Shown here piece after piece: positions 15,149-58,316 of a DNA stretch of 64,000 nt. How positions within the stretch are numbered: the first letter of the stretch is position 1; each line of letters opens with the position of its first letter. Where the stretch lies: NCBI RefSeq assembly GCF_030908245.1, contig NZ_JAVFJJ010000008.1, positions 1 to 64,000 on the forward strand, read 5' to 3'. The translations under genes and the position numbers were made by a program. Source of the DNA: Sinomonas sp. ASV322. Its GTDB lineage: Bacteria > Actinomycetota > Actinomycetes > Actinomycetales > Micrococcaceae. The notes under the pieces are model-generated. The model was not told where the DNA came from. It saw only the letters and a list, made by a program, of their open reading frames with translations, and did no database searches.

Positions 15149-15624
15149 TGGACCACACGCCCGCTCCCCGGATGCCCGACGGCGCGGAAGCCTCGGCGGC
15201 CGTTCTGGCCGCCGCAGGCTTCCCCAAGATGCCCGCGCGGGCGCTCATGGCGCTCGTCGTCTCGGACGACGGCTCCCTCACGGCCGCCGAGCTCGGCGAC
15301 ATCCTTTCGGCGAGCCCGGCCGCCGTCTCGGGTGCCGTGCGGTACCTCCAGACGATCGGCTTCGTGCACCGCGTCTCCCAACCTGGCAGCCGGCGCGACC
15401 GCTACGCGCTGCCCGACCACGCGTGGTATGTCGCCTCACTCCGCCAGAACCCCGTCTACGACCGCCTCGCCGACCTCGCGGCGGCGACGGCGGAAGGCCT
15501 CCCAGAGGGCTCGGCCGCCCGCGAGCGCGTCGAGGAGATGGGCGGCTTCTACCGCTTCCTCGTCGCCCGCGTGCCGATCCTCCTCGACGAATGGGAGCAC
15601 GCGAGGGTCCAAGCTTCAACCTGA
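15148..15624 (+). CDS. MarR/GbsR-like regulator of the ABC exporter
   Basis: Winged-helix regulator, 158 residues, starting MDHTPAPRMPDGAEASAAVL. The recognition region LTAAELGDILSASPAAVSGAVRYLQTIGFV and the wing QPGSRRDRYALPDHAWY are typical of the GbsR/MarR type encoded next to ABC exporters. Its ATG overlaps the permease stop by one base, giving translational coupling. It probably represses the operon's own promoter at 12481-12509 and senses an export substrate. Confidence 0.85.
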   Translation: MDHTPAPRMPDGAEASAAVLAAAGFPKMPARALMALVVSDDGSLTAAELGDILSASPAAVSGAVRYLQTIGFVHRVSQPGSRRDRYALPDHAWYVASLRQNPVYDRLADLAAATAEGLPEGSAARERVEEMGGFYRFLVARVPILLDEWEHARVQAST

Positions 15625-15704
15625 CGCAACCCGTTCGTTACCTGGCGGTGGCAGGCTCCCGGCTGGGGGACAGCAGCACTGGAACCCACAAGGGAGTACC
15701 GCCC

Positions 15705-17759
15705 ATGTCAGGCTTGAACCGCCGTCGTTTCCTTCAGCTCTCGGCCACCGCCGCCGCGGGCACCGCCATTTCGGAGATGCTCGGAGCGAGCATCGCGCGC
15801 GCCGCGTCCATCCCGGCGAACCGCGCGACGGGCTCGCTCAAGGACGTCGAGCACGTCGTCATCTTCATGCAGGAGAACCGCTCGTTCGATACCTACTTCG
15901 GCACGCTCAACGGCGTGCGCGGCTTCGGCGACCCGCACCCGGCAGTCCTGCCGTCCGGGAAGAACGTCTGGTACCAGAACAACGGCACGCGGGACATCCT
16001 CCCGTACCACCCGACCGCGCCCAACCTCGGCATGCAGTTCCTCGAGGACCTCGACCACTCGTGGAAGCTCACCCACGAGGCGTTCAACAACGGCAACTAC
16101 GACAAGTGGCTCCCCGCCAAGTCGGAGGCCACGATGGCGTTCTACGAGAAGAACGACATCCCGTTCCACTTCGCCCTCGCAGACGCGTTCACGACCTGTG
16201 ACCAGTACCACTGCTCGATCCTCGGCCCGACCGACCCGAACCGCTACTACATGTTCACGGGCTACACGGGCAACGACTACAAGGGCGGCGGCCCGGACAT
16301 GTGGAACGCCGAGGTCGGCTACGACTGGAGCACATACCCCGAAGAGCTCGAGAAGGCCGGCGTGAGCTGGAAGGTCTACCAGGACGCCGGAACGGGCCTC
16401 GTCGGCCCCGACTGGGGCTGGACCGGGAACGCGTACATCGGCAACTACGGCGACAACGCCCTCCTCTACTTCCACCAGTACCAGAACGCGAAGCCCGGCA
16501 GCCCGCTCTACGAGAAGGCCGTCACGGGCACCGACGCCGTCCACGGCGACGACCTCTTCCGGATCTTCCGAGAGGACGTCAAGTCGGGGAAGCTGCCCCA
16601 GGTCTCCTACGTCGTCGCTCCCGAGGCCTACACCGAGCACGCGAACTGGCCGCCGAACTATGGCGCGTGGTACACGGCGCACATCCTCGACATCCTTACG
16701 TCCAACCCGGACGTGTGGAGCAAGACGGCGTTCTTCATCATGTACGACGAGAACGACGGCCTCTTCGACCACATCGTGCCCCCGCACCCCAACACGCCGC
16801 AGATCCCGGGCGCCTCGACGGTCTCGACCGAGGGCGAGTGGTACGACGGCCGCATGACGGCCTCGGGCCACAAGGATGTCCCAGGCCACTTCGGCCTCGG
16901 CGTGCGTGTGCCCATGATCGTCGCGTCCCCGTGGAGCATGGGCGGCTGGGTCTGCTCCGAGACGTTCGACCACACGTCGATCGTCCAGTTCCTCGAGGCC
17001 CGCTTCGGTGTCAAGTCGCCGAACATCTCCGCGTGGCGTCGCACGGTCTCGGGTGACCTCACGAGCGCGTTCGACTTCTCCTCCACGGGCGGTCCCGTCC
17101 CGGCCATGCCGCCGACCGAGCAGTACAAGCCGATGGACCAGAACCGCCACCCGAACTACTACCCGGTGCCGCCCGCGGTCAACGCGATGCCGAAGCAGGC
17201 CCCGGGGACGCGCCCGTCGCGTCCGCTCGGCTACGCGCTCGACGTCGACGCCTCGCTTTCCGGGGGCAAGCTCGCCGCCCGCTGGACCAACGCGGGCGCA
17301 CTCGGTGCGCACGTCCAGGTCCGCTCGACTCTCCTGCCGGCCGGCCCGTACTCGTACACGATCGGTGCCGGCGCCTCGCTGTCCGCTTCGTGGGCGCTCG
17401 GCGCCGAGTACGACGTGCAGATGCACGGCCCGTCCGGCTGGTTCCGCCGCTTTGCGGGGACGACGGCGGCTGCGGACATCCGCGTCTCCGTCGCCCGGGA
17501 TGGGGCTGCTGCGCACGCGCAGTTCCGAATCGAGAATGCGGGTTCGGCCGCCGTGTCGCTCAAGCTCGTCGACGCGTACGGCGCCGGTTCGCAGACGCTC
17601 GCGCTCAACCCGGGCCAGGCGAAGACCGTCGTGGTCCCGACGCAGGGTGGCTGGTACGACCTCACCGTCACCTCCGCGGATTCGAAGCTCGTTCGGGTTC
17701 TGGCTGGCCGCCTCGAGAACGGCCACGCGCTCACGAGCGACCCGCAGCTCGGCCGCTGA
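15705..17759 (+). CDS. plc: Phosphocholine-type phospholipase C, Tat-exported
   Basis: Secreted phospholipase C, 684 residues. Signal peptide of Tat type with NRRRFLQLSATAAAG near residues 4-18 and AAS cleavage region. Phosphoesterase domain: HVVIFMQENRSFDTYFGTLN, the metal/phosphate core QENRSFD, later FFIMYDENDGLFDHIVPP and FDHTSIVQFLEARFG. The C-terminal about 200 residues hold two DUF756 beta domains (DVDASLSGGKLAARWTNAGA; VSVARDGAAAHAQFRIENAG). It releases phosphate or choline from lipids and is usually phosphate-regulated, though no pho box was identified. ATG 15705 preceded by AAGGGAG. Confidence 0.93.
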   Translation: MSGLNRRRFLQLSATAAAGTAISEMLGASIARAASIPANRATGSLKDVEHVVIFMQENRSFDTYFGTLNGVRGFGDPHPAVLPSGKNVWYQNNGTRDILPYHPTAPNLGMQFLEDLDHSWKLTHEAFNNGNYDKWLPAKSEATMAFYEKNDIPFHFALADAFTTCDQYHCSILGPTDPNRYYMFTGYTGNDYKGGGPDMWNAEVGYDWSTYPEELEKAGVSWKVYQDAGTGLVGPDWGWTGNAYIGNYGDNALLYFHQYQNAKPGSPLYEKAVTGTDAVHGDDLFRIFREDVKSGKLPQVSYVVAPEAYTEHANWPPNYGAWYTAHILDILTSNPDVWSKTAFFIMYDENDGLFDHIVPPHPNTPQIPGASTVSTEGEWYDGRMTASGHKDVPGHFGLGVRVPMIVASPWSMGGWVCSETFDHTSIVQFLEARFGVKSPNISAWRRTVSGDLTSAFDFSSTGGPVPAMPPTEQYKPMDQNRHPNYYPVPPAVNAMPKQAPGTRPSRPLGYALDVDASLSGGKLAARWTNAGALGAHVQVRSTLLPAGPYSYTIGAGASLSASWALGAEYDVQMHGPSGWFRRFAGTTAAADIRVSVARDGAAAHAQFRIENAGSAAVSLKLVDAYGAGSQTLALNPGQAKTVVVPTQGGWYDLTVTSADSKLVRVLAGRLENGHALTSDPQLGR

Positions 17760-17837
17760 CGCCTGGGGGCGGCGGCTCCCCCGCGCCCGCCGTTTCGGCC
17801 CCGGCTTCCCGCTGGCCCGCCTTTCGGCCCCGGCGCC

Positions 17838-17934
17838 CGCGTTCCTGACCGGTTGTGATTTCCCAATCGGTCAGGAACGCGGCGCGTCGGGGCCGACTCG
17901 CGTCCGGCGGCCCTAGAAGTGGGCCGGAGCGCTC
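17838..17934 (+). repeat. Palindromic intergenic repeat, copy A
   Basis: Stem CGCGTTCCTGACCG (17838-17851) / CGGTCAGGAACGCG (17868-17881), 14 bp perfect, with loop GTTGTGATTTCCCAAT. The 3' part continues GGCGCGTCGGGGCC and ends near AGAAGTGGGCCGGAGCGCT. Two related copies lie at 56513-56609 and 57581-57670 in the same orientation. It may also terminate the phospholipase transcript. Confidence 0.85.
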
Positions 17935-17982
17935 GGTACCGTGGCACGTGGACGACGGAACCACCTGAACGCGGGAGGGCAC

Positions 17983-35995: not shown

Positions 35996-38284
35996 TCAGA
36001 ACAAGAAGTAACGCTGCGTGAGCGGCAGGGTCTCGACGGGCTCGCACGTGGCCAGTTCGCCGTCGACCGTGACCTCGTAGGTCTCGGGGTCGACCTCGAG
36101 GTGGGGCGTCTCGCCGTTGAACGGAAGATCCGCCTTCCGGAGGGAGCGAATCCCACCGACCGCACGGATCTGCTTGCGGAGGCCGAGTCGCTCGGGCACG
36201 CCGGCCTCGATTGCAGCCTTCGACAGGAACGTGATCGACGAGCTCTCGACGCTTCGCCCGTACGCGGCCCAGGCCATACGCAGGGTCTGCGGCTGCGGCG
36301 TCGGGATGGACGCGTTGGGGTCGCCCATGACGGAGTTCGCGATCGTGCCGCCCTTGACGACGAGGTCCGGCTTGGCGCCGAAGAACGCCGGATCCCACAG
36401 CACGAGGTCGGCGAACTTGCCCACTTCGACCGAACCCACCGAGTCCGCGATGCCCTGCGCGATCGCGGGGTTGATCGTGTACTTCGCGACGTAGCGCTTG
36501 ATGCGGAAGTTGTCCGCGGGGCCCGCGTCCGCGCCGCCACGGGCCGACGGCGCGAGCGCCCCCCGCTGCGCCTTCATCTTGTCGGCGAGCTGCCACGTGC
36601 GGGTGATGACCTCGCCGATGCGCCCCATGGCCTGCGAGTCGCTCGACATGATCGAGAAGACGCCGAGGTCGTGGAGCACGTCCTCCGCCGCGATCGTCTC
36701 GGGGCGGATGCGCGAATCGGCGAACGCGACGTCCTCGGGGATCTGCGGACTCAGGTGGTGGCACACCATGAGCATGTCGAGGTGTTCCTCGGCCGTATTC
36801 CGCGTGAACGGGTTGGTGGGGTTGGTCGAGGACGGCAGGACGTTCGGCTGGCCCGCGATCGCGATGATGTCCGGCGCGTGGCCGCCGCCTGCGCCCTCGG
36901 TGTGGAACGTGTGGATCACGCGGCCGCCGATTGCGGCGATCGTGTCCTCGAGGAAGCCGCACTCGTTGAGCGTGTCCGTGTGGATCGCGATCTGCACGTC
37001 GTACTCGTCCGCGACGCGCAGCGAGGTGTCGATCGAGGAGTGCGTCGCGCCCCAGTCCTCGTGGATCTTGAGGCCGATCGCGCCCGCTTCGATCTGCTCG
37101 GCGAGCGGCTCCGTGCGGCTCGCGTGGCCCTTGCCCAGGAAGCCGAAGTTCATCGGGAGCCCCTCGGCGGCCTCGAGCATGCGCGAGATGTGCCACGCGC
37201 CCGGGGTGACCGTCGTCGCCTTCGTCCCCTCGGCCGGGCCCGTGCCGCCGCCGATCATCGTCGTGATGCCGGACGCGAGCGCCGTCGGCACCTGTTCGGG
37301 CGAGATGAAGTGGATATGCGTATCGATGCCGCCCGCCGTGAGGATCTTCCGCTCCCCCGCGATGATCTCGGTCGACGCGCCGACCACGATGTCCACGCCG
37401 TCCTGCACGAGCGGGTTGCCTGCCTTGCCGATGGCGAAGATGTGCCCGTCGCGGAGCGCGACATCCGCCTTGTAGATGCCCGTGTAGTCGACGATGAGCG
37501 CATTCGTGATGACGGTGTCGGGGACCTCAGGCCCCTCGCCGCCAGAGTCGCCGCTGCGCGTGACCCGCCCGTTCTGGCCCATCCCGTCGCGCAGCACCTT
37601 GCCGCCGCCGAAGACCACTTCCTCGCCATACGTCGTGAGGTCGCGCTCGACCTCGGCGAAGAGGCCCGTGTCCCCGAGGCGCACGCGATCGCCCGTCGTC
37701 GGGCCGTAGAGCTGGGCGTACTGGGCCCGCGGGATCGCGCGGTTCGGCAGCGGCTCGCGGCTTCCGGCCGGACCAGCGGACGACGGCGGGACGTCGCCTC
37801 CCGGGGCGACCTCGGCGCCACCCGCGGTGACCTCGGCGCCACCCGGGGCGACCTCGGCGCCACCCGCGGTGACCTCGGCGCCACCCGCGGTGACCTCGGC
37901 GCCACCCGGGGCGACCTCGGCGCCACCCGCGGTGACCTCGGCGAGAGTGTCGAGCGGCCCGTCGGTGAGGTTCCGCAGCCCGTACACCTCGCGCGCGCCC
38001 CCGAGCGGGACGAGACGAACCGTCTTTCGATCGCCGGGCTCGAAGCGCACCGCAGTGCCCGCGGGGATGTCGAGGCGTCGGCCCCGTGCGGCGTCGCGGT
38101 CAAAGTCGAGCGCCTTGTTCGCCTCGGCGAAGTGGTAGTGGGAGCCGACCTGGACGGGACGATCGCCCGTGTTCGTGACGTCGAGCTCGGTCACGGGTCG
38201 GCCCGCGTTGAGCACGATCTCGCCTGCGGCGGGGATGGTCTGGCCCGGAACGAAAGCGGGGACCGGCAGGTTCTGGTCTTCCAT
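35996..38284 (-). CDS. ureBC: Fused urease beta-alpha subunit UreBC
   Basis: Urea amidohydrolase structural protein, 762 residues, one uninterrupted frame. Residues 1-113 are UreB (beta): PGEI-like [31 protein letters not shown]. Residues 115-163 are seven 7-residue units AEV(TA/AP)GG. Residues 184-762 are UreC (alpha) of normal length: [10 protein letters not shown] (Ni ligands), [12 protein letters not shown] (carbamylated Lys), [26 protein letters not shown], flap MVCHHLS, and [13 protein letters not shown] (Asp ligand), ending RYFLF. All active-site residues are present. Beta-alpha fusion is rare; separate ureB and ureC are usual. The gamma subunit is separate (ureA, 9 bp upstream). Confidence 0.95.
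37796..37942. repeat. Seven 21-bp tandem repeats encoding the UreB-UreC linker
   Basis: 147 bp made of seven 21-bp units in two alternating versions (GCGGTGACCTCGGCGCCACC and GGGGCGACCTCGGCGCCACC patterns on the plus strand), encoding AEVTAGG or AEVAPGG. It lies exactly at the domain boundary. Not CRISPR: no spacers. Confidence 0.93.
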
Positions 38285-54513: not shown

Positions 54514-56490
54514 ATGTCAACACTCACCCGGCCGCCGGCCGACCCGTCGGACCGCACGAGGCCGGCCACCCCTGGCTTCCGCCGCTGGCTCCTCGAAGGC
54601 ATGCCGGAGGGGGCAGGTCAGCACCAGGGCCCCCACGGCGTCCCGAACGAGCACCACACGCCGCAGTCCTGGTGGAAGGTCATGTGCCTCACGGGTGTCG
54701 ACTACTTCTCGACCCTCGGCTACCAGCCTGCCATCGCGGCCGTCGCAGCCGGACTCCTCTCGCCCATGGCGACGGTCATCCTCGTCCTCGTGACTCTCTT
54801 CGGCGCCCTGCCCGTGTACCGCCGCGTCGCGAAGGAAAGCTTCAAGGGCGAAGGCTCGATCGCGATGCTCGAGCGGCTCATGCCCCGGTGGACGGGCAAG
54901 CTGTTCGTCCTCGCGCTCCTCGGGTTCGCGGCGACCGACTTCATGATCACCATGACGCTCTCCGCGGCCGACGCGAGCGCCCACCTCGTCGAGAACCCCT
55001 ATGTTCCCGACGCGTTCCACGGCCAGCAGATCACGATCACCCTCGTGCTGCTCGCGGCCCTCGGCATCGTGTTCCTGCGCGGCTTCCGCGAAGCGATCAA
55101 CGTCGCCGTCGTGCTCGTCGGCGTGTACCTCGTACTCAATGCGGTCGTCGTCGTCGTCGGCCTCGGCCACCTGTTCACGGACCGCGGGGCCGTCGTCAAC
55201 TGGTGGTCAGCCCTCACGGCCCAACACGGCGACCCGCTGGTGATGATCGGCATTTCGCTGCTCGTGTTCCCCAAGCTCGCGCTCGGGCTCTCGGGCTTCG
55301 AGACGGGCGTCGCGGTCATGCCCCAGATCAAGGGCGACGCGCGGGACACCGAGGAGAAGCCCGTTGGACGCATCCGCGGAACCCACCGGCTCCTCACGAC
55401 CGCTGCGCTCATCATGTCCGCGTTCCTCATCGCGACGAGCTTCATGACCATCACGCTCATCCCCGAGGCCGAATTCCAGCCCGGCGGGAAAGCCGACGGA
55501 CGCGCGCTCGCGTTCCTCGCGCACCAGTTCCTCGGCGACGGGTTCGGGACGGTCTACGACGTCTCGACCATCGCGATCCTGTGGTTCGCGGGCGCCTCCG
55601 CCATGGCGGGCCTGCTCAACCTCGTGCCGCGCTACCTGCCGCGGTACGGCATGGCCCCCGCGTGGGCCCGTGCCGTGCGCCCGCTCACGCTCGTGTTCAC
55701 CGCGATCGGGTTCATCATCACGTGGATCTTCGAGGCCAACGTCGACGCGCAGGGCGGGGCGTACGCGACTGGGGTGCTCGTCCTCATGACCTCCGCGGCC
55801 ATTGCCGTGACGCTCTCCGCGTGGCGCAAGAAGCAGCGAACGCTCACGTGGGCGTTCGGATTCATCAGCGCCGTGTTCCTCTACACGACCGTCGCGAACT
55901 CGCTCGAACGGCCCGACGGCATCCGGATCGCGGCGGTGTTCATCGTCCTCATCGTGATCGTGAGCTTCGCCTCGCGCGTTCGGCGTTCCTTCGAGCTCCG
56001 CGCGACGCTTGTGAAGCTCGACGAGCAGGCACTCGAATTCCTCGCCGAGCTCGACGAGGGGCCGATCCGGCTCATCGCCCACGAGCCCCAGCGACTCGAC
56101 TCGGAGCGGTACCGGAATAAGCTCGTCCACGCGCGTGCCGCCAACCACCTGCCCGAAGACGCGGAGATCCTGTTCATCGAGGTCGTCGTGGACGACAGCT
56201 CGGAGTTCGAGCAGGAACTCGACGTGCGCGGGATCAAGCGCCACGGGTTCAAGGTCCTCGAGGTCCACTCGAACAACGTCCCGAACACGCTCGCGGCCAT
56301 CCTCTTGCACTTGCGGAACGCGACCGGGCTCATGCCGCACATCTACTTCCGCTGGACCGAGGGAAACCCGGTCATGAACCTCACGAAGTTCCTGTTCTTC
56401 GGCGAGGGCGAGATCGCCCCCGTCACGCGCGAGGTGCTGCGCGAGGCCGAGCCGCGCGTGACCGAAAGGCCATGGGTGCACGTCGGCTAA
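54514..56490 (+). CDS. APC-superfamily transporter with cytosolic tail
   Basis: Membrane carrier of 658 residues. N-terminal 45 residues are hydrophilic, then [20 protein letters not shown] opens about 12 helices ([40 protein letters not shown]). The last 145 residues form a cytosolic domain ([40 protein letters not shown]). This layout resembles the APC/KUP-like family that includes the KimA potassium importer, so potassium or amino-acid uptake are both possible. GAAGGAG before the ATG. Divergent from the agmatinase-family gene. I looked for a c-di-AMP riboswitch in the leader and did not see one. Confidence 0.78.
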
Positions 56491-56512
56491 CCCAGGCGCG
56501 GGGCCCCTCACT

Positions 56513-56609
56513 CGCGCTCCCGCCCAGTTGTGTTTTGCCAATCGGTCGGGAGCGCGGCGCGTCTTGGCCGGACGCCCAAATCGGAATGTCAGAAGTGGGC
56601 TCGACCGCT
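56513..56609 (+). repeat. Palindromic intergenic repeat, copy B
   Basis: Stem CGCGCTCCCG (56513-56522) / CGGGAGCGCG (56547-56556), 10 bp perfect, loop containing AGTTGTGTTTTGCCAATC. It continues GGCGCGTCTTGGCCGGA and ends near AGAAGTGGGCTCGACCGCT, as in copy A. Relative to copy A, two stem positions change on both arms (T-A to C-G), keeping the pairing. It sits just after the APC transporter stop and 5' of the DUF559 gene. Confidence 0.85.
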
Positions 56610-56717
56610 CTGGCCCCGCGGCGTCCAAAGCTCCTCCACAGAATCCAACGCGGCGTGTCGCCCACATAGCCTGACACTCAGCCGCTCGTGCCGACGCGAG
56701 CGTGAGCTGCTGATGAG

Positions 56718-57566
56718 ATGGACCCTCTTCAGATCCTCGGCTCACTCGGCGGCGTGGCCCGCACCGCAACACTGATCGAGGCCGGACTCAGCCGGACGGA
56801 CCTCGATTACGTAGCCAGGCGTGCCGCGCGGCCAAAGCGGGGCGTCTACGCCCTCGATGGCTGCCGCCGAGACTTCCTCTCTGCCATCATGCACAACGCG
56901 GTCATCACGTGCGCGTCAGCTGCACGCGACTATGGCCTGTGGCTCCGAAAACCGCCCCATCAGGACCATCTCGGCTGCGATCACGGGCATGGGGCAAGTC
57001 GGGGAACTGGCGGCATCAGACCCGTCGTGCATCGTGGTCTTCGGTACCCTGCACATCACTCGCTCCCGCTCGCAGCCTTGGAGGACGTGCTTCTCCATGC
57101 CCTTCGCTGCCTTCCTGCCCAAGCCGCGGTACCGCTTGCCGCCTCCGCCATCAGGCTGCACGGGCTCCGCATCGCTTTTCTCGAGGAAGAGCTCACCGCC
57201 CAGAAAAGCGGCCGCTCGCTTGCGACCCTCCGCGCGGTCGAGCCGCGGGTTGAATCCCTCCCCGAGGCCGAAGCGCTCCTCCTCCTGATCCCCCTCGCCA
57301 AGGAACTCGGCCTTGACGTTGAGCCGCAGGCGCTCATCCCCGGCATCGGTCGGGTCGACTTCCTCATCGGAGGATTCCTCATCGTGGAAATCGACGGGGT
57401 CGCCTACCACTCGGACCGGGATTCAGTGCGCAGAGACCGGCGGCGAGACAACTCGGCCACCCTGAGGGGATACCTGCGCCTTCGCTATCTTCCCGAGGAA
57501 ATCTGGAACGAGCCGGACCGGTTCATCGCAGAGGTCCGTGCCGCCCTGACCGGTCGGGCTCTCTGA
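56718..57566 (+). CDS. AbiEi-like/DUF559 Vsr-type nuclease-fold protein
   Basis: 282 residues. The first half resembles the winged-helix AbiEi-type antitoxin N-terminus (LGGVARTATLIEAGLSRTDLDYVARRAARPKRGVYAL) and the HTLR-like VVHRGLRYP segment. The C-terminal 110 residues are a DUF559 domain, a PD-(D/E)xK/Vsr-like fold: GIGRVDFLIGGFLIVEIDGVAYHSDRDSVRRDRRRDNSATLRGYLRLRYL, with Asp in RVDF, Glu-x-Asp in VEIDG and RDRRRD. Activity of the family is unproven. No clear Shine-Dalgarno before the ATG. It is bracketed by repeat copies B and C. Confidence 0.8.
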   Translation: MDPLQILGSLGGVARTATLIEAGLSRTDLDYVARRAARPKRGVYALDGCRRDFLSAIMHNAVITCASAARDYGLWLRKPPHQDHLGCDHGHGASRGTGGIRPVVHRGLRYPAHHSLPLAALEDVLLHALRCLPAQAAVPLAASAIRLHGLRIAFLEEELTAQKSGRSLATLRAVEPRVESLPEAEALLLLIPLAKELGLDVEPQALIPGIGRVDFLIGGFLIVEIDGVAYHSDRDSVRRDRRRDNSATLRGYLRLRYLPEEIWNEPDRFIAEVRAALTGRAL

Positions 57567-57580
57567 GCCGGCATGCCCGT

Positions 57581-57670
57581 GCTCTGGCCCGGTTGTGGAT
57601 TCCCAATCACTCGGAGCCCGGCGCGTCGCGAGGGCGCGCCGAGAGGGCTGGCTCAGAAACGGGCCCGAAC
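57581..57670 (+). repeat. Palindromic intergenic repeat, copy C
   Basis: Shares GGTTGTGGATTCCCAATC and CCCGGCGCGTC with copies A and B and ends near CAGAAACGGGCCCGAAC, but its stem is degraded (GCTCT/GGAGC, 5 bp with one wobble). It begins 15 bp after the DUF559 stop, in the same orientation as copy B. Confidence 0.75.
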
Positions 57671-57722
57671 GCGACGGCGGGGGCCGGAACCAGAGCGCGA
57701 CGGCGGGGGCCGGAACCCGAGC
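57671..57722. repeat. 26-bp tandem repeat, two copies
   Basis: Units 57671-57696 and 57697-57722 share GCGACGGCGGGGGCCGGAAC with one difference near the end; a partial third follows. Intergenic, between repeat C and the XRE-cupin stop. Confidence 0.8.
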
Positions 57723-57740: not shown

Positions 57741-58316
57741 CTACCGGCTCGCGGCCGGGACCAGGACCCACAGGACGGTCGCGGGCTCGTCCAATGGGTT
57801 GACCCACGTGTGCGGCTCGCGGCCGGGGAATGTGAGGGTGTCCCCCGCCTCAAGCTCATAGCGGTCGTTCGTCATGACGAGCTGGAGCCGGCCACGCACG
57901 ACGTGCAGCACGTCTACGTCGCAGTCGACCGCATACAGCTCGGACTCCCCCGCGCCCCGAGGCTCGATCTCGGCCTGGATGATCTGGAGGCGCCGCTCGG
58001 ACCGCGCCGTGAGCAGCCGCTCGACGATGCCCTTGCCGCCGAGCGAGATGCGGGGAGCCTCGGCGCCGCGCGTGAGATGCGTCTCCGGCGTCGCGAAAAG
58101 CTCCCCGATGGGAAGCGAGAGGACTTGGCAGAGAGTCACGAGCGAGGCCACGCTCGGCGAGGATTCGTCACGCTCGACGCGGCTCAGGAAGCCCTTCGAG
58201 AGGCCCGCCGCCTCGGCCACCTGCTCGATCGTCATGCGCTGCGCCTCGCGCGCCGCCCGAATCCTCGAGCCGATCGCCACAGACACATTGCTCGGCTCGA
58301 CCGGCAGGGCTTTCAT
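57741..58316 (-). CDS. XRE-family HTH regulator with cupin domain
   Basis: 191 residues. HTH_XRE near residues 15-68: IGSRIRAAREAQRMTIEQVAEAAGLSKGFLSRVERDESSPSVASL. The C-terminal cupin_2 (YAVDCDVDVLHVVRGRLQLVM, then ELEAGDTLTFPGREPHTWVNPLDEPATVLWV) is a small-molecule or metal-binding sensor. This type (PuuR/SutR-like) often governs amine or aldehyde metabolism. The same 15-bp element precedes this gene and the adjacent alcohol dehydrogenase at equal distance, so autoregulation and control of that enzyme are likely. Confidence 0.88.
   Translation of the reverse strand: MKALPVEPSNVSVAIGSRIRAAREAQRMTIEQVAEAAGLSKGFLSRVERDESSPSVASLVTLCQVLSLPIGELFATPETHLTRGAEAPRISLGGKGIVERLLTARSERRLQIIQAEIEPRGAGESELYAVDCDVDVLHVVRGRLQLVMTNDRYELEAGDTLTFPGREPHTWVNPLDEPATVLWVLVPAASR

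Follow-up and report, generated by a model that had tools for sequence, protein, structure and literature searches.

A Vsr-like DUF559 nuclease gene bracketed by a dispersed, covarying hairpin repeat in Sinomonas

Described systems and the Sinomonas locus

The closest described counterpart of the locus reported here is the pairing of REP/REPIN repeats with RAYT (TnpA-REP) enzymes, which it resembles in that a nuclease gene is flanked by a dispersed family of palindromic repeats (here of the alpha, beta and G159 types). REP elements have been described as 20 to 40 bp long and as lying close to gene 3' ends (PMC3733652), a position shared by the alpha elements, and the RAYT enzyme has been described as vertically inherited (PMC8049555). 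Compared with these descriptions, the alpha element is longer (~100 bp against 20 to 40 bp) and has three stems, the enzyme is predicted to combine an AbiEi-like with a Vsr-like region where RAYT is a tyrosine transposase, and the host belongs to the Actinomycetota.

Other systems share single features with the locus. The Vsr-like homing endonuclease I-Bth0305I has the same fold in its catalytic domain, but the DUF559 gene was not seen inside an intron or intein, carries an added AbiEi-like region and is accompanied by hairpin repeats rather than a unique target. Ssn of Neisseria is reportedly a site-specific GIY-YIG nuclease with a short target and dispersed cognate NTS repeats, some of them around its own gene; the likeness would lie in a nuclease with dispersed cognate repeats, the enzyme here being Vsr-like and the repeat a hairpin. 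AbiE toxin-antitoxin systems share the N-terminal AbiEi-like fold (6y8q), but in the window protein this region is joined to a nuclease, and no AbiEii nucleotidyltransferase partner lies beside the gene in the window, where its neighbors are a membrane protein and an HTH/cupin regulator. Caulobacter VsrA, a DUF559 Vsr-like putative endonuclease, is reported to cause the SOS response in cells lacking the ScmA methyltransferase; it differs in being tied to cytosine methylation, with a proposed role in mismatch repair, and the parts of that report available to us mention no repeats (PMC12907096). Titles and abstract openings in the open-licence PMC literature yielded no paper linking DUF559 genes to repeats.

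The window analyzed here is the first 64 kb of contig C32 of a Sinomonas genome (G000). It contains three copies of a folded repeat of ~100 bp (alpha), two of them on either side of a gene whose product matches DUF559, a "protein of unknown function" family in Pfam (23.9 bits against a cut-off of 20.6). The repeat was modeled with a covariance model, R1, trained on 12 copies that include A, B and C of the following features.

17832-17934, + strand: copy A, solo element, 3' of the gene at 15705-17759; R1 match of 96.5 bits (training-set member)
54514-56490, + strand: upstream neighbor, a 658-aa membrane protein, permease-like by eye
56507-56610, + strand: copy B, upstream hairpin element; R1 match of 93.1 bits, E 4.1e-17 (training-set member)
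56658-56666, + strand: degenerate DnaA-box-like 9-mer, TCGCCCACA, 60 bp 5' of the start codon, with two differences from TTGTCCACA
56718-57566, + strand: DUF559 gene, 282 aa, predicted AbiEi-like fold plus DUF559/Vsr-like nuclease
57572-57674, + strand: copy C, downstream hairpin element; R1 match of 84.6 bits, E 3.4e-15 (training-set member)
57741-58316, - strand: downstream neighbor, an HTH and cupin regulator (Pfam HTH_3, Cupin_2)

The original prediction had proposed copies A, B and C. All three are real and lie on the + strand, with extents in the covariance model slightly wider than first given; the words GTTGTG, CCAATC, GGCGCGTC and AGAA..GGGC are indeed common to them, and the Pfam match with model matches on either side confirms the gene between B and C. 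No Rfam family matches the elements at its gathering score. The sole Rfam match in the window, 5_ureB_sRNA, lies elsewhere (37282-37594, + strand, 90.7 bits). The 658-aa membrane protein, for which a Pfam scan at E 0.001 returned no family, is encoded beside the cassette in G000, G009, G001 and G007, and in G010 beside the empty site. A flank with the HTH/cupin gene is recognizable by eye beside five Arthrobacter/Pseudarthrobacter DUF559 genes (L159, L160, L162, L163 and L171).

An AlphaFold2 model of the window protein (pLDDT 94.5, pTM 0.89) matched the AbiEi antitoxin 6y8q in Foldseek (E 1.4e-4, TMt 0.49; the sole match below E 0.001). The catalytic domain of I-Bth0305I, 3r3p, was matched both by fold (E 1.1e-3, TMt 0.72-0.74) and by sequence (E 0.018). 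On these models, the protein is predicted to combine an AbiEi-like fold with a homing-endonuclease domain of the Vsr-like kind. Among 49 family members, Pfam AbiEi_4 is found in 32, DUF559 in 45 and MTES_1575 in 33; AbiEi_4 was not matched in the window protein at E 0.001. Residues D214, E224, H231, D240 and R243 are retained in 49/49 members and, judging from the fold class, are probably catalytic. The Pfam and Foldseek matches listed include no Y1/HUH tyrosine transposase.

Bracketing and fold of the elements

A BLASTN search of the own genome with copy B gave 11 other matches (E 1.5e-13 to 2.4e-4), two of which are opposite strands of one place; copy C was too diverged for this search and was picked up by its motif. 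R1 matches at least 40 places in G000 at E < 1e-6, a lower bound from scoring 150 of 11077 first-look candidates. Four of the 40 bracket two close DUF559 genes and 36 lie elsewhere. Within the window, B and C have decayed outer stems; relatives show cleaner inverted arms. Neither flank of the window gene (L075) reached the inverted-repeat threshold, and B and C score only 12 as direct repeats.

With the window protein as query, 15 genomes of the genus yielded five close-clade members, the protein itself included, at 69-100% identity: two in G000 (on contigs C32 and C1) and one each in G009, G007 and G001. All five genes lie between two co-oriented R1 matches; the orthologs of the window gene in G009, G001 and G007 likewise have one element upstream and one downstream. 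Across 58 genomes, searched with stricter filters and 68 candidates scored per genome, R1 matches at E <= 0.01 in eight, own included, all within the genus. The beta subfamily (G005, G004, G013 and G012), at 45-49% identity, has other arms in a similar layout.

Judged by flanking genes, G000, G009, G001 and G007 have the C32 site in common. The DUF559 gene lies there between two whole elements, and in G010 the distance between the flanking matches is 67 bp and no element is present. The empty G010 site (L112, G010:C34, about 164330-164396) holds instead a long unrelated palindrome, TGCTCCACAAGTGTCGTT..AACGACACTTGTGGAGCA. The C1 gene of G000 is a second-site paralog, 70% identical to the C32 gene, with its own variant of the brackets. 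At the corresponding site no element was seen by eye in G007, G009, G006, G010, G011, G008 or G003, and G001 keeps only a ~35-bp 3' fragment. The proposal that sites without the cassette would keep one repeat therefore fails at both sites checked. A candidate solo element in G001 at the C1 site was rejected, the match being a tandem duplication of the neighboring gene's 3' end. In several species (L139, L143 and L251), the gene to the left of the C1 cassette has a tandemly repeated 3' end.

Bracketed flanks extend beyond the close clade, with hairpins spelled differently at the more distant DUF559 genes. With a score of at least 10 within 350 bp as criterion, inverted arms are present on at least one side of 26 of 31 Sinomonas DUF559 genes, the window gene being among the other five. 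At 79 loci from Sinomonas, Arthrobacter, Pseudarthrobacter, Paenarthrobacter and one unplaced Micrococcaceae bin, arms occur in 38 upstream and 36 downstream flanks, against 143/1519 control windows. We assembled 90 genes with full flanks, 75 from these 79 loci plus 15 hand-chosen Sinomonas genes (doubles avoided), the flanks beginning at the match edge and so in some loci inside the gene. A direct-repeat score of at least 12 between the two flanks was obtained for 48/90 DUF559 genes, against 10/209 control genes (Fisher 7e-21) and 6% of 1500 mismatched flank pairs; 42/90 scored lower. Inverted arms of at least 10 were found upstream of 46/90 genes (19/209 controls) and, with weak enrichment, downstream of 27/90 (36/209 controls; p 0.02), and any flank criterion in 57/90 (19/209 controls). 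Because the genes are related, these p-values are optimistic. The downstream element of Arthrobacter sp. Soil763 (L159 4780-5130) is present in two tandem copies.

The family occurs at E <= 1e-25 in 24/118 genomes of the class. Of 30 loci in all, 26 lie outside Micrococcaceae; 13 of these score at least 12 and 10 at least 14, compared with 3/33 and 1/33 control genes and with 8.4% and 1.1% of mismatched pairs (n = 1482). Bracketing, first noticed at one locus, is systematic and no coincidence of that locus, as both the close clade (5/5) and the wider comparison (48/90 versus 10/209) indicate.

The alpha element has a 13-pair outer stem (its central pair mostly mismatched), a GGTTG/CAATC hairpin and a CGTGTC/GACACG hairpin. 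Across 68 distinct copies, 84.6% of the cells of this three-stem fold are paired, and the outer stem covaries, with one pair read as CG in 39 copies and as UA in 13. The covariation score (0/500 shuffles reach it) and the number of cells changed on both sides (66) exceed all 500 shuffles, and 7/500 shuffles reach the 12 pairs with a double change; the alignment leans toward the model that made it, and the shuffles ignore relatedness. An alternative fold joining the 5' arm to the middle arm may also form; it has 76.6% of cells paired and a covariation score topped by one slid control (0.116 versus 0.100). The G.T pair of stem P2 was considered as a Vsr mismatch target and dropped because it is not invariant (GU in 51 of 67 sequences with letters, GC in 7, AU in 2, unpaired in 7). 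Inverted arms are present at the element ends, where by eye there is no GTAG or CGTC tag such as REP palindromes carry at one end.

Co-diversification, DnaA-box word and turnover

The upstream element of one gene resembles the downstream element of another mainly when the two proteins are related: alike pairs make up 3-6% below 60% identity, 18% at 60-70%, 33% above 70% and 53% within the same gene. Element similarity correlates with protein similarity (Mantel r 0.25, 0/999), a correlation that may partly reflect shared ancestry of the genomes.

Alpha and beta elements reside in largely separate genomes, following nuclease type. At E <= 0.01 the alpha model finds nothing in G002, G004, G005, G008, G011, G012 or G013, which include the beta-nuclease genomes. 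The beta model matches 12 distinct places in G012, 8 in G013, 7 in G004 and 6 in G005, as well as 4 in G008, the carrier of a truncated beta-like gene; elsewhere its matches are weaker (0-3 places per genome), and two coincide with alpha elements. Two genomes go against this pattern, having many alpha matches but no alpha nuclease (G006, 24; G010, 13). G159, which belongs to another family of the order, carries the element of one gene at 8 places, two of them bracketing that gene; two relatives lack it save for one 42-bp match (E 0.05). The G159 elements (L305-L318) look to be built of a repeated ACACCTGCACGAC-like motif in two direct and two inverted copies.

The word TCCACA occurs in the 150 bp upstream of 73/90 DUF559 genes and 5/331 control genes, and the 9-mer [TC][TC][AG]TCCACA in the same interval of 49/90 and 2/331. 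A slightly wider form of the 9-mer starts at -59 to -62 in 44 of its 69 occurrences within 350 bp. Both TTGTCCACA and TTATCCACA are given as high-affinity DnaA boxes in Table 1 of PMC4285127, and each of six dnaA loci surveyed contains between 1 and 5 such words, against a background of 13 in 400 kb.

The elements also lie toward the origin. In four genomes with dnaA located, 43/43 sites counted among the matches listed fall within 62% of the origin-terminus distance (KS p 1.5e-6), with neighboring copies merged, the length of G159 rounded to 3.4 Mb and one terminus-proximal 28-bp partial match in G159 (E 0.001) left out. G009 contributes 23 of these sites, G013 7, G004 6 (alone not significant, p 0.13) and G159 7. 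Spacers are not scarce near the G009 terminus (46 in 8 samples versus 82 in 12), and 560 kb sampled in that genome between 1.34 and 3.18 Mb gave one match at E 0.074 and none better. Leading and lagging strands show no bias (12/23). Origin proximity is a correlation, and old elements could also have persisted there through conservation of gene order around the origin.

Site sharing was judged from 55 alpha elements, of which G000 contributes 30 (of its 40) and relatives 25, some mutually orthologous. Of the relatives' loci, 17/25 correspond to an element site of G000, the C32 cassette accounting for four; at least 9 of the 30 G000 loci compared are common sites, and that of copy A aligns with element loci of G001, G003, G006, G009, G010 and G014. 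With many element sites common to species, turnover looks slow, and there is no sign of recent movement. Neither transposition nor cleavage was seen, and the few sites read closely showed no exact insertion boundary and no target duplication. The two genes around the top-scoring G000 copy, L020, have matches in G005, G008 and G013 that are separated by 43-52 bp without an element; the copy was rejected as a gained solo element, the spacers being too diverged for insertion boundaries or for telling gain from loss. The original suggestion of a RAYT/REP-like cassette stands for systematic bracketing and for repeat type tracking nuclease type, but not for movement by the nuclease, which is not seen at sites so often common to species (17/25).

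A paired system and its alternatives

The association and co-diversification of gene and element are strong, and in this little-studied nuclease family of soil actinobacteria the frequent bracketing by a gene's own type of repeat, together with further chromosomal copies, suggests a working pair of enzyme and repeat. Reasoning from comparative sequence data, we give about an even chance to nuclease gene and hairpin repeat forming one two-part system, a REP/RAYT-like pairing on an unrelated nuclease that would include nicking or cutting of the hairpin. Recognition of the hairpin by the nuclease is likely and the simplest reading; movement of elements by it is plausible, if uncertain. The bracketing, the covarying fold, the dispersal, the co-diversification and the conserved residues of catalytic type are observed; binding, cutting and a role in element spread are what we infer. 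The protein, with its AbiEi-like winged-helix region and Vsr-like domain, would recognize its subfamily's hairpin, most likely in an extruded or single-stranded state while DNA replicates, and would nick or cut it; the gene would be placed between two of its own target sites, and solo copies would be older, either produced or targeted by that activity. Cut-and-repair between elements would account for their direct orientation, the similarity of paired brackets, the spread of solo copies and the second cassette at another site.

One alternative, unlikely but the most serious of the rivals, treats the hairpins as operators through which the winged-helix region autoregulates the gene, the solo copies being a regulon or leftovers and the nuclease acting elsewhere, for example on invading DNA. 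AbiEi proteins bind inverted repeats and autoregulate, and the predicted fold matches a solved AbiEi antitoxin, with AbiEi_4 in 32/49 members (the window protein not among them). Elements after the stop codon and solo copies mostly at 3' ends are, however, poor operator positions, and some arm positions conserve pairing, through compensatory change, and not sequence.

Somewhat less probable again is that the elements are structured RNAs at transcript ends, such as Rho-dependent terminators or RNA stabilizers, that merely happen to lie on either side of DUF559 genes. Position favors this idea. With our own gene caller, 54 of the 55 alpha elements overlap no predicted gene, at least one gene ends toward the element in 52 (the other three lying between divergent genes), and between co-directional genes sense outnumbers antisense 25 to 7 (p 0.002; 12 to 5 in the own genome alone, p 0.14). 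Yet a T-tract is found in 0/54 elements on either strand (L023, at a contig end, left out), no Rfam family reaches its gathering score, and the idea leaves unexplained both why element similarity tracks nuclease similarity and why paired repeats are seldom found at control genes of the same loci. Ordinary terminators, distributed independently of DUF559 genes, had been named at the outset as the reading that would speak against a cassette; the 3'-end positions agree with them (52/55), but the missing T-tracts and the dependence of repeat type on DUF559 type do not.

We regard as improbable a MITE-like nature of the elements, with another enzyme spreading them and the nuclease gene as a passenger between two of them. 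Inverted end arms would fit, as would the bracketing of ordinary genes, which also counts against the paired system. A phospholipase-C-like gene (by eye) at 15705-17759 has elements on both sides in G001 and G006, and its left element is absent in G000; the stretch corresponding to window positions 15600-17960 appears to have lost the gene in G010, where one element is left, and most of it in G009. The G010 arrangement fits recombination between direct repeats. Against MITE-like spread, the same passenger would have to be captured repeatedly and independently by many elements, with correlated divergence. Vertical inheritance with bracket similarity from functionless local gene conversion is very improbable: the C32 locus is common to G000, G009, G001 and G007, but brackets recur elsewhere (G000 C1, beta loci, other families), solo copies are dispersed and control genes are bracketed at a rate of only 10/209.

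Returning to the paired system, a broader form of it is possible but doubtful, and we advance it tentatively: that actinobacteria-wide AbiEi-Vsr nucleases with a DnaA-box word at about -60 act on their own three-stem hairpins in time with replication initiation, and so build and maintain origin-proximal, subfamily-specific repeats, a system previously undescribed. Bracketing by a cognate hairpin gives the DUF559 family a testable substrate. If the pairing is true, nuclease-repeat partnerships of the RAYT/REP kind would gain a second, unrelated type of enzyme, and the DnaA-box word and the position of elements toward the origin would connect such a system with replication.
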